Source: Ralstonia sp. NFACC01
GTDB lineage: Bacteria > Pseudomonadota > Gammaproteobacteria > Burkholderiales > Burkholderiaceae
Length of the DNA: 64,000 nucleotides
NCBI RefSeq assembly: GCF_900115545.1
Contig: NZ_FOWV01000013.1
Coordinates: 1 to 64,000, forward strand
Direction: 5' to 3'
The notes under the pieces are model-generated. The model was not told where the DNA came from. It ran no database searches and worked only from the letters and a program-made list of their open reading frames with translations. The translations under genes and the position numbers were made by a program. Positions 1 to 62,200 of this stretch are shown piece by piece; within the stretch, counting starts at the first letter, position 1; each line of letters opens with the position of its first letter.

Positions 1-72
1 GGCACACCCAGCTACGTGCGGGAGTGGAAGGACAGTGCCCGCGCGCCGGTGGGGGATGTGGTGATGTCGTGA
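1..72 (+). CDS. C-terminal end of an unidentified protein (cut by window edge)
   Basis: Frame 1 is open from the first base and ends at a TGA at 70-72. The 23 visible residues, beginning GTPSYVREWKD, look like ordinary coding sequence, but are too few to name a family. The supporting context is that a structured repeat follows about 55 nt downstream in the same orientation, as it does after the two other genes in this window that carry this element. Treat as a probable gene end only. Confidence 0.4.
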   Translation, partial: GTPSYVREWKDSARAPVGDVVMS

Positions 73-127
73 CGTCTGTGGGGTGCTAGTTGTTTTTGTT
101 TTGGTCGTGGTGGTGCATCCCTTGTTT

Positions 128-344
128 CATCCCCTGCCGGGGCTGACTCACTTTCTTTGGTCTTGCCCAAAGAAAGTAAGCAAAGAAATGCGCGCCCAAG
201 ATGGCGACCCCCTCCTTGAATTTCTGTCGCAGGGAGGGGAAGGGAAAAACTCGCTTCGCTCAGACAGTTTCCCTTCCTTTTTCCTCCCTGCAACAGAAAT
301 TCAAGGCGCCATCTGGGGCAGGGAAAGTCAACAAACAAAAGCCA
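128..344 (+). repeat. Structured 3'-end repeat element, copy 1
   Basis: First of three homologous copies of a roughly 200-nt element. It opens with a CCCCTGCCGGGG mini-palindrome, then a perfect 10-bp hairpin (151-160 with 167-176, loop tcttgc), then the constant block CGCGCCC-AGATGGCG. A long hairpin follows: 214-227 pairs with 293-306, 229-237 with 283-291, and 238-247 with 268-277, around the conserved loop TCGCTTCGCTCAGACA; it closes with CGCCATC at 307-313. Similarity to copy 3 extends to about 344. It follows the gene ending at 72 in the same orientation. Possible roles are 3'-UTR structure, terminator, or a miniature mobile/REP-like element. Confidence 0.85.
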
Positions 345-371
345 AACCTTCTGGGCGCCAGCCCAAACGAC

Positions 372-405
372 AAGGCCAACCGCGCGATGGGTTGGCCTTT
401 CTCTT
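372..405 (+). terminator. Rho-independent terminator between repeat copies 1 and 2
   Basis: AAGGCCAACC (372-381) pairs perfectly with GGTTGGCCTT (390-399) and is followed by TTCTCTTTT on the plus strand. On the minus strand the tail is only TTGTCGTTT, so plus-strand termination is favoured. It sits in the centre of the convergent gap between the gene ending at 72 and gspF, and could end both transcripts. Confidence 0.65.
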
Positions 406-421
406 TTGACGTTGAGCCCTT

Positions 422-612
422 GATGGCGCCTTGAATTTTTGTGAGCGGGCGGATCAAGGAAGGAGGCTTGTCTGAGCGCAGCGAGTTTGCCTCCTTCCCC
501 GCACGGTCACACAAATTCAAGGGATGGGTCGCCATCTCGGGCGCGCCTTTCTTTTGCTTACTTTTCTTTGGCAAGACAAAGAAAAGTGAGTCGGTCCCGG
601 CAGGGAACGAAA
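422..612 (-). repeat. Structured 3'-end repeat element, copy 2 (inverted)
   Basis: Second copy, on the minus strand, starting about 27 nt after the gspF stop codon and therefore sense-oriented to gspF. The first hairpin arms (560-570 and 577-587) each carry one extra base compared with copy 1, so pairing is kept. The inner stem of the long hairpin (458-467 with 489-498) reads GGAAGGAGGC/GCCTCCTTCC instead of GGAAGGGAAA/TTTCCCTTCC in copy 1, so both arms changed together. The loop core TCGCTGCGCTCAGACA is conserved. This copy is the most diverged of the three. Confidence 0.85.
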
Positions 613-638: not shown

Positions 639-1850
639 TTAGTGCACCAGCTGGTTAATCTCAATAATCGGCATCAACACAGCCAACACGATGAGCAACA
701 CCACCACGCCCATCGTCAAAATCAAAGCCGGCTCCAGCAAGCCCGTGAGGAACAACGTCCGACGCTCCAGCTCTTGAGCCTCGCCCTGCGCAGCCCGCTC
801 CAACATCGCAGGCAGATTGCCCGTCGCCTCACCCGAACGAATCAAATGCACCAGCACAGGCGGAAACTGGTTCTGCGCCGCCAACGCCCGCGCCAGCGAA
901 GTCCCTTCCCGTACGCGTGTGGACGCATCCTCCACATTGGTCTTGAGGGCGACGTTGTTCAGCGTCTCCCCCGCGGCCTGCAGGCCCCGCAGGATCGGCA
1001 CACCGGCACTGGTGAGAATGGCCAGCGTGCTGGCAAACCGCGCGGTGTTGTAACCGCGAACGAGCTTGCCGAACAGCGGCGCGGTCAGCAGCCACTTGTG
1101 CCACGACAGCCGCAATGCCGGCTGCTTGAGCAGATTGCGGATCAGCACGCCGATCGCCACCAGAACGATCGCTGCCAGCCAGCCCCAGTTCCGTACAAAA
1201 TCCGACAGCCACAGCATGATGATCGTGAGTGTCGGCAGCTTCTGCTTGGTGTTGGCAAACACGCTCACCACCTGCGGCACCACGTATGACAGCAGGAAGA
1301 TCACGATCGCAAACGCCACCACCGTGACGATCGCCGGATACGTGAATGCCAGCTTGATCTTGGAGGTCAGCGCGTTGCGGCTCTCGATGTAGTCCGCCAG
1401 GCGCGAGAGCACGAGGCCAAGATTGCCCGAGTGCTCGCCCGCTGAAACGAGGGCGCGGTAGATGTCCGGAAAATCCTTTGGATGCTGCGCCAGCGCCACC
1501 GAGAGTGAGCTGCCGCCCACCACTTCCGCGCGGATGGCCGCGAGCAGCTCGCCGACGTACGCACGTTCGGCCTGATCGGCCAGCGCGGCCAGCGCTTCAT
1601 CGAGCGGCAGACCCGCCACCAGCAGGCTGGCGAGCTGGCGCGTGACGAGCGCGTTTTCCTGCGCCGAGAGCCGTTTGCCGAAGCTGGACCCGCTGCGCTT
1701 GGTGGCCTGTGCGCCCAGTACGTCGACCAGCAGCGGAGTCAGCCCGCGTGCGCGCAGCAGCGTGCGCGCCTGACGTGCGCTGTCGGCTTCGATGACACCC
1801 TTGTCGGTCTTGCCGGCGGCGTCGGCGGCTTCGTAGCGGAAGGCTGGCAT
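639..1850 (-). CDS. gspF: Type II secretion inner-membrane platform protein GspF
   Basis: Polytopic inner-membrane protein of the type II secretion platform, thought to couple the GspE ATPase to pseudopilus assembly. The 403 residues match the usual family length. There are two repeated cytoplasmic T2SSF domains (about 70-190 and 270-390), with membrane segments near 167-190, 218-240 and 373-397. Each repeat has the family's GxxL..AL....FP pattern (for example KDFPDIYRALVSAGEHSGNL and FPPVLVHLIRSGEATGNL). It is the last gene of the minus-strand gsp operon, 22 nt after gspE, and is followed by repeat copy 2. The identification is firm. Confidence 0.95.
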   Translation of the reverse strand: MPAFRYEAADAAGKTDKGVIEADSARQARTLLRARGLTPLLVDVLGAQATKRSGSSFGKRLSAQENALVTRQLASLLVAGLPLDEALAALADQAERAYVGELLAAIRAEVVGGSSLSVALAQHPKDFPDIYRALVSAGEHSGNLGLVLSRLADYIESRNALTSKIKLAFTYPAIVTVVAFAIVIFLLSYVVPQVVSVFANTKQKLPTLTIIMLWLSDFVRNWGWLAAIVLVAIGVLIRNLLKQPALRLSWHKWLLTAPLFGKLVRGYNTARFASTLAILTSAGVPILRGLQAAGETLNNVALKTNVEDASTRVREGTSLARALAAQNQFPPVLVHLIRSGEATGNLPAMLERAAQGEAQELERRTLFLTGLLEPALILTMGVVVLLIVLAVLMPIIEINQLVH

Positions 1851-38163: not shown

Positions 38164-38239
38164 TGGCGCGCCCGGCTGGGATCGAACCAGCAACCCCTGC
38201 CTTCGGAGGGCAGTACTCTATCCATTGAGCTACGGGCGC
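38164..38239 (-). tRNA. tRNA-Arg (anticodon CCG)
   Basis: Full cloverleaf on the minus strand, 76 nt with encoded CCA. Acceptor GCGCCCG pairs with CGGGCGC, discriminator G, the D-arm carries GCTC-AATGGATA-GAGT, anticodon stem CTGCC/GGCAG with loop CTCCGAA, giving CCG, and T-arm GCTGG/CCAGC around TTCGATC. It decodes CGG. It lies upstream of hisC in the same orientation. No duplicated 3'-end or integrase is seen nearby, so no integrated element uses it here. Confidence 0.95.
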
Positions 38240-59634: not shown

Positions 59635-59700
59635 GGTTGTGCGCCCGGGGAATTCGCGTATCGTGCCGTGGTCGATGTCTGCACGATCGCTTTCCCTGTC

Positions 59701-61968
59701 ATGCGTACTCATTCTCTCTTCTGCACGCGGCAACTGTGGCCGCTCGCGTCGCTCCTGATTTTGCTGATGGCGTGCTTCGCCAACGTGGCCGACGCCGCGC
59801 CGGTGTCGTTTGCCAAACTGGCCGGGCTGCCGACCTCCACCGCCAGCGCATCGGCGCCGGCGGCGGACCCTGCGCAGACACGCCAGTCGCTCGACACCGT
59901 CATCACGCTGCTCAACAACGACCAGCAGCGCACGGCCCTCGTCAATGAACTGAAGCAGTTGCGCGACGGCATGAGCGCGCAGCAGAAGGTGCAGGCAGAA
60001 CAGGCACCGGGTCTGTTGGGTGCGGTGGCGTCGCTGATCGAGAACGGCTCGCTGCAGGCCGATGTGGAAGCCGGGGCGCCGCGCTACTGGCTGCGCCGCA
60101 TCGAGGCCGCCAGCGGTAATGCCGGCCTGCTCTTCTCGCCCGACAAACGCATGCCGCTGGCCGCCGACTTTGCCGGCACCGTGGGCATCTGGGCCGCCAT
60201 TGCCGGTGGCCTGCTCGCCCTGGGCTGGTTGATCCGCCGTGTGTTTGGCCTCACGGCGGGCCTCGGGCCGCATCCGACCACTCGGGCGTTGCTGATCGAC
60301 GCGTTGCGCAAGATCGGCCCATGGGCGATCTCCTTTGCAGTCATCGTGCGGCTCGACCACGACGCCTCGCCGGGCTTTGTGCTGGCGGTGGTGCTGGCCT
60401 ACGCCATCGTATGGGGCGCGATCATCACGGCGGGCGTGGCGATGCTGTTCTCGCTCTTTTCCGGCAGCGCGCACCGGCGTGTGGCGGTGGAATATCTGTT
60501 CAAGCACGGCATGTGGCCGATTTTTCTGACGGCCAGTCTGGGCGCCTGCGGCGATGCGCTGGTCGATCCGCGCGTCGCGTTGGTGCTGGGCGGATCGCTC
60601 AGTTTGCTGCTGGCCACGGTGTGCAACGTGGTGTCGTCGTTGATGCTGGCAGCGGGCGCGTTGTGGGCGCGCCGGCCCATCGGCCAGCTGATCGCCAATC
60701 GCCCGCTGGAGCTGCGCAGCGGCGAACACACGGGCAACCAGGTCCGCCGTCTGCTGGCCGCGTTCTGGCCCGTGCCGGTGGTGGTGCTGGCGAGCGCCAC
60801 CGTCGTGGCCACGCTGACGACGCCCGACAACGTTGACGCCGTGGCGCGCCGCGCGGTGATGACGTCGCTGCTGCTGGTGGCGGCGTTCTTTCTGTCGGCG
60901 CTGATTCGCCCCCGCGCGAACTGGCGCTCGCACCTGCGTCTGGCGCGCAGTTCGCCTTACGTGGAGCGGCTCAAGCATTTCGTTGGCGCGCTGATCAAGC
61001 TCGTTATCTGGATCGCCTTCCTGGAGCTGGTGCTGCGCGTGTGGGGCCACACGCTGGTGGAGGTCGCGCACAGTTCGGTCAACGGTAAGCGCATCGCCGA
61101 TGCCTTGGTCGGCCTGATCGGCACCGTGTTTGCCACTTGGCTGGTCTGGATCCTGCTCGACACGGCGATCCTGCGGGCGCTGTCGCCGGCCTCCGCGCGG
61201 GCGCAACCCAGCACGCGTGCGCTGACCATCCTGCCGCTGCTGCGCAACGGCCTGAAGGTGACGCTGGTGGTGACGGCCAGCATTGGCGTGCTGGCCAACC
61301 TGGGCGTCAACGTGACGCCGCTGGTGGCCGGCGCCGGCGTGATCGGCCTGGCGGTGGGCTTTGGTGCGCAGTCGCTGGCGCAGGATTTCATCACCGGCAT
61401 CTTCATCCTGATGGAAGACACCATCAGCGTGGGCGATACGGTGGACGTGGGCGTGGCTACGGGTTCCGTCATCAATCTCACCATCCGCACGGTACGGCTG
61501 CGCGATGGCACAGGTGCGGTGCTGTCGATTCCGTTCAGCCAGATCAAGACCGTGCGCAACCTCTCGCGCGATTACTCGTTTGCCGATTTTGAAGTGCGCG
61601 TGTCGATGGAGGCAGAGCCGCAGCAGGCGATCGATCTCGTGCGCGCGGCGGCTGATCAGATTGCGGGTGAGCCGCGCTTTGGCTACACGTTGCTCGGCGG
61701 TGCGGAAATCTTCGGGCTGGATCGCTTTGAAGGTGGCGCGATGATCGTCAAGGGGCGGTTCAAGACGCGTCCGCAGAAGCAGGCTGACGTGCTGCGCGCG
61801 TTCAACGTTGTGCTCAAGGATGCGTTCGACAAGGCGCACGTGCCGCTGGCGGCGCCGGGGACGGTGTTGCGGACTTCTGCGGCGTTGGAGGAGTGGATGG
61901 CGCGGGTGGCGCCGGAGAAAGCGGCGTCGGCTTCTTCCAATGAACCGCCTGCTGCTGCGCCGGCGTAA
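59701..61968 (+). CDS. Large mechanosensitive channel (MscS family, YbiO/MscM-like)
   Basis: It has 755 residues. Signal peptide (PLASLLILLMACFANVADAA), periplasmic helical domain (about 30-160), multiple membrane helices (about 160-540), then the MscS pore and beta domain: VAGAGVIGLAVGFGAQSLAQ (pore helix TM3), DFITGIFILMEDTISVGDTV and the vestibule strands (DGTGAVLSIPFSQIKTVRNL). Gating by membrane tension protects from osmotic downshock. The ATG at 59701 is used; GTG at 59668 would give a longer leader. The C-terminus is Ala/Pro-rich. Confidence 0.9.
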   Translation: MRTHSLFCTRQLWPLASLLILLMACFANVADAAPVSFAKLAGLPTSTASASAPAADPAQTRQSLDTVITLLNNDQQRTALVNELKQLRDGMSAQQKVQAEQAPGLLGAVASLIENGSLQADVEAGAPRYWLRRIEAASGNAGLLFSPDKRMPLAADFAGTVGIWAAIAGGLLALGWLIRRVFGLTAGLGPHPTTRALLIDALRKIGPWAISFAVIVRLDHDASPGFVLAVVLAYAIVWGAIITAGVAMLFSLFSGSAHRRVAVEYLFKHGMWPIFLTASLGACGDALVDPRVALVLGGSLSLLLATVCNVVSSLMLAAGALWARRPIGQLIANRPLELRSGEHTGNQVRRLLAAFWPVPVVVLASATVVATLTTPDNVDAVARRAVMTSLLLVAAFFLSALIRPRANWRSHLRLARSSPYVERLKHFVGALIKLVIWIAFLELVLRVWGHTLVEVAHSSVNGKRIADALVGLIGTVFATWLVWILLDTAILRALSPASARAQPSTRALTILPLLRNGLKVTLVVTASIGVLANLGVNVTPLVAGAGVIGLAVGFGAQSLAQDFITGIFILMEDTISVGDTVDVGVATGSVINLTIRTVRLRDGTGAVLSIPFSQIKTVRNLSRDYSFADFEVRVSMEAEPQQAIDLVRAAADQIAGEPRFGYTLLGGAEIFGLDRFEGGAMIVKGRFKTRPQKQADVLRAFNVVLKDAFDKAHVPLAAPGTVLRTSAALEEWMARVAPEKAASASSNEPPAAAPA

Positions 61969-61993
61969 GGGCGTTGGTGGTTTGCTGTGGTTT

Positions 61994-62200
61994 CGTCCCC
62001 TGCCGGGGCCGACTTACTTTCTTTGTCTTGCCAAAGAAAGTAAGCAAAGAAAGGCGCGCCCGAGATGGCGAAAGATTCCTTGAATTTAGGTCGCAGAGAG
62101 GGAAGGGAAAAACTCGCTTCGCTCAGACAGTTTCCCTTCCTTTTTCCTCTCTGCAACAGAAAATCAAGGCGCCATCTAGGGCAGGGGAAAGTCAAAAGCC
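61994..62200 (+). repeat. Structured 3'-end repeat element, copy 3
   Basis: Third copy, starting about 26 nt after the MscS gene stop and sense-oriented to it. Its first hairpin is a perfect 13-bp stem (62013-62025 with 62032-62044). The long hairpin keeps pairing where it differs from copy 1: GCAGAGAGG/CCTCTCTGC (62093-62101/62146-62154) versus GCAGGGAGG/CCTCCCTGC. The loop TCGCTTCGCTCAGACA is identical to copy 1. It lies between convergent genes. Confidence 0.85.

Follow-up and report, generated by a model that had tools for sequence, protein, structure and literature searches.

Three copies of a structured element in the window

The window, i.e. the whole stretch of 64,000 nucleotides from Ralstonia sp. 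NFACC01 that was analysed, carries three copies of a structured element, all present where a preliminary description had placed them (Table 1). In agreement with that description, copy 1 lies behind the stop codon at position 72, which closes a 282-aa ORF that can be read whole on the overlapping contig C20, copy 2 behind the stop codon at 639 of a gspF-like ORF (639-1850, minus strand) and copy 3 behind the stop codon at 61968 of an MscS-like ORF (59668-61968), the last two gene names being assigned by eye. All three copies are located between convergent genes; therefore, the window alone cannot tell which strand of the element follows a gene.

The copies contain a first hairpin, a GCGCGCCC-AGATGGCG block and a long hairpin, with stable folds on both strands, and they differ jointly in both arms of their stems, as had been described. 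In each of the three, the strand opposite to the sense initially chosen folds more stably than that sense strand itself, which is hereafter called the initial strand. The first stem of copy 1 has one additional G/C pair that had been overlooked, and all three tracts of copy 2 are one step longer than those of copy 1. The hairpin in the spacer between copies 1 and 2 looks terminator-like on both strands when judged by eye, as do those of several, but not all, other pair spacers.

Table 1. Element copies, pseudoknot modules and tracts in the window
Feature	Position	Strand	Details
Element copy 1, outward half of a close pair with copy 2	128-344	proposed folded strand minus (initial strand plus)	
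Copy 1 pseudoknot module	125-196	minus	model R1, 65.9 bits, E 7.1e-14
Copy 1 tracts	third 182-188; pyrimidine arm 169-175; purine arm 152-158		UUUCUUU / AAAGAAA
Spacer of the copy 1/copy 2 pair	345-421		GGCCAACC...GGTTGGCC hairpin with flanking A/T runs
Element copy 2	422-612	proposed folded strand plus (initial strand minus)	
Copy 2 pseudoknot module	541-612	plus	model R1, 62.5 bits, E 4.6e-13
Copy 2 tracts	third 548-555; pyrimidine arm 562-569; purine arm 578-585		UUUCUUUU / AAAGAAAA
Element copy 3, solo, between convergent genes	61994-62200	proposed folded strand minus (initial strand plus)	
Copy 3 pseudoknot module	61991-62060	minus	model R1, 75.2 bits, E 4.3e-16
Copy 3 tracts	third 62046-62052; pyrimidine arm 62033-62039; purine arm 62018-62024		

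The elements generate open reading frames in the window (12-338 and 260-664 on the minus strand, 83-409 on the plus strand), and at another locus (L042:478-2235) the frame of an outer-membrane-factor-like gene begins within an element. Automatic annotation may therefore yield spurious small proteins or long N-termini at such places. The only match to Rfam at gathering level in the window is a tRNA gene (38167-38239, minus strand).

A proposed third strand in the conserved core

On the proposed folded strand, the conserved module consists successively of one S2 strand, a pyrimidine tract, GGUUAC or GCUUAC, a pyrimidine arm, a loop, a purine arm and GURAC or GURAG, this end being often followed by a small hairpin. 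The first tract, i.e. the putative third strand, reads parallel to the purine arm and has a U where the arm has an A and a C where it has a G. Among 53 unique tract pairs, which come from related and hence not independent sequences and were parsed by expressions demanding a lower stem and pyrimidine-rich tracts, 212 cells are concordant and 19 discordant. Once the class enriched by the search pattern is removed, the counts are 167 and 18 (167/185, 0.903), the maximum reached by 2000 permutations being 0.727. The register is specific: agreement is 0.649, 0.589, 0.500 and 0.458 for shifts of -2, -1, +1 and +2, respectively, and 0.706 in direct-repeat order. The 47 unique pairs from loci that were not picked by the exact tract pattern give 155 concordant cells out of 172 informative ones (mean of 2000 permutations 0.608, maximum 0.743), and in the 21 non-palindromic cases the parallel order is obeyed by 121 cells to 13 and the direct order by 81 to 53.

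Parsing succeeded for 51 of the 55 pieces considered in the home genome, the overlapping copy on contig C20 being left out; 49 obey the code and two disagree. These 49 belong to two classes, 38 with UUUCUUU and AAAGAAA and 11 with UUUCUUUU and AAAGAAAA, the longer class including copy 2 of the window. The base that copy 2 adds to both arms of its first stem had been noticed in the preliminary description, whereas the match in the third tract, in mirror order, had not, and it is the key to the fold.

As copying of DNA makes direct or inverted repeats and does not yield parallel complements, the tract code is read as selection on a triple helix. The conserved core looks like an H-type pseudoknot with a pyrimidine.purine-pyrimidine triple helix and not like a plain hairpin; its putative third strand, parallel to the purine strand with U.A and C.G contacts, is supported by covariation. 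Triple-helix pseudoknots are found in telomerase RNA, the SAM-II riboswitch and type III antitoxin RNAs, in which a stem of an H-type pseudoknot is likewise lined by a third strand. These RNAs are functional and come from particular loci, whereas the element is a dispersed repeat, and its third tract differs from theirs by containing C and by extending over up to 8-9 consecutive steps. To our knowledge, natural sequence variation has rarely provided evidence for a triple helix.

Loop pairing, stem covariation and the strand that folds

Bases located beyond the third tract complement those in the loop of the first hairpin, and the versions of this pairing differ between lineages. The 52 unique combinations comprise 156 free cells, of which 114 pair (mean of 3000 permutations 61.3, maximum 82); the excess persists without the commonest class (63/102, permuted maximum 51) and without the Ralstonia loci (110/144, permuted maximum 76). 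A fourth free pair of the loop is at chance in the same 52 combinations (11 versus 11.0). According to a looser test, a helix of at least 4 bp can be drawn in 64 of 100 combinations (permuted mean 30, maximum 42 of 500).

The stems S1 and S2 were compared on an alignment of 50 out of 61 diverse modules (seven of the 11 excluded ones are long-looped and one, L122, has a mismatched stem). Together, they pair in 90.0% of cells versus 78.5% after shuffling, with a covariation score of 0.322 versus 0.151 for shuffled and at most 0.112 for slid alignments; two further covariation measures are marginal, as equally high values arise in 8 and 37 out of 500 shuffles. For S2, the proportions of paired cells are 57.6% and 72.9%, the former, lower value being that of the three-pair S2 helix on the alignment. 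The selection on structure that the preliminary description had proposed is thus supported by the covarying pseudoknot, stem and loop pairing; in contrast, the arm changes of the long hairpin on which that description had drawn can be explained by exchange of blocks (see below).

The strand that folds can be approached through wobble pairs. At one stem pair, the 50 modules have U.G in 31 cases, U-A in 18, C-G in one and C.A in none, and 62 unique lower stems give 13 to 0 at the same pair. S1 as a whole has 42 G.U and four A.C, and 11 versus four when that pair is excluded (p = 0.12). Furthermore, RF01731, the Rfam family of the TwoAYGGAY RNA (Weinberg et al. 2010), matches a pair of elements from a Halothiobacillaceae genome on the strand opposite to the initial one; the partial match reaches 46.7 bits, above the cut-off, and the full-length match, which ends at the core, 39.5 bits for a cut-off of 43. 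Because of the asymmetry at the stem pair and of the strand of RF01731, the pseudoknot probably forms on the strand opposite to the one initially proposed.

The mismatches of the long hairpins give 30 G.T versus 16 A.C on the initial strand in Ralstonia (p = 0.054), 56 versus 76 outside Ralstonia (p = 0.10; 64 versus 91 with the Ralstonia loci included) and, for RF01731 bodies on the strand of that family, 22 G.U versus nine A.C (p = 0.03). This asymmetry is weak and contradictory and settles no strand. On the sequence evidence, we lean towards the strand of RF01731 as the folded strand and towards RNA as the molecule.

Abundance and distribution

The home genome (25 contigs, 5.37 Mb) harbours 57 pieces of the element, corresponding to about 54 copies once a locus that occurs at the ends of two contigs and a copy that is split are each counted a single time. 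With so many pieces in the genome, the finding of three copies in the window goes far beyond chance. All 15 congeneric genomes searched have 35-61 matches each; among 15 further genomes from the family and the order, one has any (four, weak). Contig ends of the home genome often lie in or beside a copy (C7, C9, C10, C12, C19, C20, C21, C22, C24 and C25), which indicates that assemblies break there. C20 and C21 start with the same locus in opposite orientations, copies are densely clustered at one end of C22 (1-17000), several as pairs, and C23 has a repeated GTTCCGAACCC-like unit about 120 nt past one copy, to the right of 24554.

A strict pattern of the core is found in 18 of 250 genomes of the order, and the backward control pattern in none of the 250. 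A pattern scan of GTDB species genomes retrieved at least 119 stretches, mostly from beta- and gamma-proteobacteria according to record titles; the other loci, among the matches listed, come from Chitinophaga, Selenomonadaceae, Oscillospiraceae, Nitrospirae, Bacteroidetes and candidate-phylum genomes, several of the matched genomes being metagenome-assembled. Model R1, with at most 20 candidates scored per genome, detects modules in 31 of 249 Pseudomonadota genomes (23 of 132 genera).

Plasmid records and IMG/VR contigs also carry the core. A plasmid search found it at seven places of the Ilyobacter polytropus megaplasmid; at one of them (L215:3979-4048), in a spacer between divergent annotated genes, it is 90% identical to the Burkholderiales form. 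A Pasteurella multocida record that is filed under plasmids has two outward-facing modules between dapF and a DUF484 gene (L214:4973-5434), the first of which overlaps the dapF stop codon. Seven stretches of IMG/VR contigs match the core pattern; six of these contigs have a model R1 module (L207, L208, L209, L210, L212 and L213), and L211, found by the pattern, has no R1 match. Annotated phage and E. coli records have no match to the element or its core, nor do plasmids have any to the Pseudomonas-type core.

Position relative to genes and organization in pairs

Among the 24 pieces of the home genome outside close pairs, 18 solo copies remain after removal of five at contig ends and of one collapsed pair. 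By hand count, seven lie between convergent genes, 11 in tandem spacers and none between divergent genes. On the folded strand, 16 of the 18 have a co-directional gene upstream, 26-125 nt away; on the initial strand, only nine have one, in one case 303 nt away. Nine of the 11 tandem copies follow the folded strand (p = 0.065).

In other genera, codon-trained gene calls allowed 50 elements to be classed, after removal of 43 loci of low GC content, 30 edge cases, 12 long gaps and one duplicate. The tandem ones are split between the initial strand (21) and the folded strand (14; p = 0.31), 11 are convergent and four divergent, whereas 67 background spacers comprise 36 tandem, seven convergent and 24 divergent ones. 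The deficit in divergent spacers (4/50 versus 24/67, p = 0.0004) and the 21:14 split suggest that the element avoids promoters and has no fixed direction outside Ralstonia. The location behind genes given in the preliminary description is supported; the claim that the element is always sense-oriented does not hold, given the nine of 18 solo copies and this split.

Close pairs have their knots outward at all 15 such loci of the home genome and, among the rows listed for ten genomes, in 17 of 19 cases of close neighbours (two of the 17 in the home genome), the other two being in tandem. Intact Ralstonia pairs measure 476-549 bp and the pairs among the rows listed for ten genomes 428-850 bp. Inverted pairs thus look like the unit, as the doublets of REPINs do.

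History in the genus

The flanks of 12 loci of the home genome were sought in six congeners, and presence of an element was judged from the spacing of these flanks among the matches listed. On this basis, the spacing fits presence in six of six congeners at C9:75917 and C11:670824, in five of five at C10:49604 and C11:306151 and in two of two at C16:43605 and C23:24366. With the same restriction to the matches listed, C11:93870, C7:461133 and C21:61994 (copy 3 of the window) each fit in five congeners and are short in G002, C16:927469 fits in four and is short in G005 and G002, the pair on C3 fits in G003 and is short in five, and the spacer of C16:270869 is longer in two congeners. As most of the compared loci are common to the genus, there is no sign of recent movement.

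At the four loci that were aligned, the shortened sites retain element ends or the pseudoknot. These remnants point to deletions and not to clean empty sites, and neither an empty site nor a target duplication could be read there. As regards a comparison with MITEs (terminal inverted repeats, target-site duplication and clean empty sites), the outward ends are inverted repeats, and the reduced sites of the four loci keep remnants. Two comparisons reveal further rearrangements. The C3 pair is inverted in place between the home genome and G003. At C7:461133, both arms of the long hairpin differ as a block between the home genome and G008, so that exchange between copies explains the arm changes without selection on single pairs. 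The compensation that had initially been seen in these arms is therefore better viewed as block replacement, since it distinguishes two species even at a single locus. Taken together, these comparisons point to elements that are old in the genus, have often lost parts by deletion and exchange stem blocks.

Relationships with known elements and search for a partner

No match to RF01731 (cut-off 43 bits) was found in the window or at four loci of the home genome at E values up to 5, and this genome as a whole has none at E 0.001. The family itself was detected in 18 of the 249 Pseudomonadota genomes, in 13 of them above the cut-off; single genomes have as many as 10 matches, which is also the number that was scored. 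By an exact search for the tracts 3' of 30 RF01731 loci, 18 have the parallel order, two have the direct order alone and 10 have neither; the direct order also fits 20 of the 30 because many tracts are symmetric. At a threshold of 8 for tract plus helix, 16 of the 30 loci are retained versus two of 600 shuffled regions. RF01731 and the element, whose module is detected in the window by model R1, thus share a 3' pseudoknot module that is not among the features by which Rfam defines the family. The same pseudoknot plan follows many gamma-proteobacterial matches on the same strand and, like the element, the matches are multi-copy and often in outward pairs; unlike them, the Ralstonia body fails the Rfam model, and the pseudoknot lies outside that model. 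Other Rfam families gave only sub-threshold hits to the element, mostly microRNA families on the long hairpins, which were taken as chance.

The passages compared, on RF01731, from RNA-discovery surveys and on Pseudomonas repeats, describe structured repeats and helix extensions of RF01731, and mention no third strand or 3' pseudoknot of this kind; literal motif strings were not found in literature text. MRSC-65-2 (PMC11109978) resembles the element in being structured, in reaching dozens of copies per genome, in its inconsistent direction relative to genes and in its occurrence in diverse phyla. It differs by having one long stem and a UYCCGG repeat, with no triple helix or pseudoknot described in the passages compared. 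Relatives of the element may be among the 250 motifs of the category of MRSC-65-2.

REPIN/REP sequences and the R-repeats of Pseudomonas fluorescens (PMC2718517) are intergenic inverted doublets that are enriched tail-to-tail and rare head-to-head, like the element; the R families were compared by description only. Unlike the REPIN/RAYT system, the modules do not adjoin a Y1 transposase gene: none was found within about 1.5 kb of any of 14 Y1 (RAYT) loci from eight genomes (about 46 kb in total). Y1 genes are carried by 25 of the 31 module-positive genomes and by 119 of 218 others (p = 0.006), and were undetected in six of the 31, four of which have 8-20 modules. Reverse transcriptases show no link: 11 of the 31 genomes with modules have RVT_1, as do 76 of the 218 others (p = 1.0). 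An autonomous partner was also sought between distant facing copies; the genes lying in two Ralstonia intervals, in one Zoogloea interval and in one Marinobacterium interval look ordinary when judged by eye.

What the element may be

The explanation that we prefer, with somewhat less than even confidence, is that of a dispersed REPIN-like repeat whose triple-helix pseudoknot would act as a recognition signal. The fold is supported by covariation; the remainder of this explanation we infer. Besides the fold, its high copy number in many genera, the outward pairs and the avoidance of divergent spacers speak for it. Against it count the lack of a partner at the Y1 loci and among reverse transcriptases, the lack of clean empty sites, target duplications and signs of recent movement at the loci compared, the fourth loop pair at chance level and the 57.6% pairing of the three-pair S2 helix. 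The following model can be drawn. The conserved core would fold from a single strand, probably of RNA, opposite to the sense initially proposed. The unit would be two copies with outward knots, like a REPIN or a MITE, and solo copies would be halves or decayed pairs. The knot would be the signal through which a putative trans-acting factor spread the element. Copies would persist behind genes because they may do the least harm there, and read-through from neighbouring genes may put the knot into mRNA tails. An RNA function and a miniature mobile element both figured among the possibilities initially listed, and the initial interpretation is partly supported.

It is possible, with distinctly less confidence, that these repeats form a mobile or selfish class spread over several phyla, with a triple-helix pseudoknot at their outward ends that would be read single-stranded, probably as RNA, by a conserved putative factor; RF01731 and the Ralstonia element would then be two bodies with one end module.

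Triple-helix elements protect some eukaryotic and viral RNAs from 3'-to-5' exonucleases. The element could in the same way serve the host at mRNA 3' ends, its knot blocking such exonucleases in 3' UTRs on the folded strand, an explanation that we consider unlikely. The place of 16 of the 18 Ralstonia solo copies, 26-125 nt behind a co-directional stop codon, is also expected under a host role and speaks against the mobile reading, and the positions mostly kept in six congeners (among the matches listed) and the avoidance of divergent spacers would agree with it. However, tandem copies of other genera have no direction, the folded strands of a pair read outward from its centre so that neither directly follows the flanking gene, and many copies are partly deleted in relatives.

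A structure acting at the level of DNA appears more doubtful. A mirror-repeat purine/pyrimidine tract could form triplex DNA in the duplex or in exposed single strands, with no role of RNA, and DNA triplexes would give the same tract code; blockwise change of the long-hairpin arms, inversion in place of the whole C3 pair and the contradictory asymmetry of the long hairpins would fit as well. Nevertheless, the covarying loop pairing requires a strand to fold back on itself and is not accounted for by ordinary H-DNA, and the alternation of U.G, U-A and C-G at one stem pair that never has C.A argues for one folded strand.

TwoAYGGAY has been proposed as a CsrA-binding sRNA (PMC4333381). The element could be a stand-alone sRNA, for example one binding CsrA, with the knot as its stable 3' end, and in gamma-proteobacteria the knot is indeed preceded on its 5' side by RF01731 in the same orientation, with AYGGAY-type loops visible at the RF01731 loci. 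This is improbable in view of the lack of RF01731 matches in the window and four Ralstonia loci at E up to 5, of the 10 of 30 RF01731 loci without a knot by exact tract search and of the dozens of near-identical copies per genome, which would be unusual for one sRNA. Finally, an artefact of chance or amplification, in which covariation would stem from one copied ancestor through shared descent and locus selection, is very improbable and already disfavoured: although Ralstonia has few tract types (two classes make 49 of 51), copies exchange blocks, cells are not independent and two covariation measures are marginal, the code is obeyed by many tract types and in many genera, in one register only, and loop pairing takes several versions, apparently independent, in different phyla.

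Since the C of the third strand shifts with the G of the stem across genera and phyla, the fold can be tested by swapping a few bases. RF01731, an Rfam family of unknown function, likely gains a missing 3' domain, and the knot would provide a handle to find whatever recognizes, and once spread, such ends.
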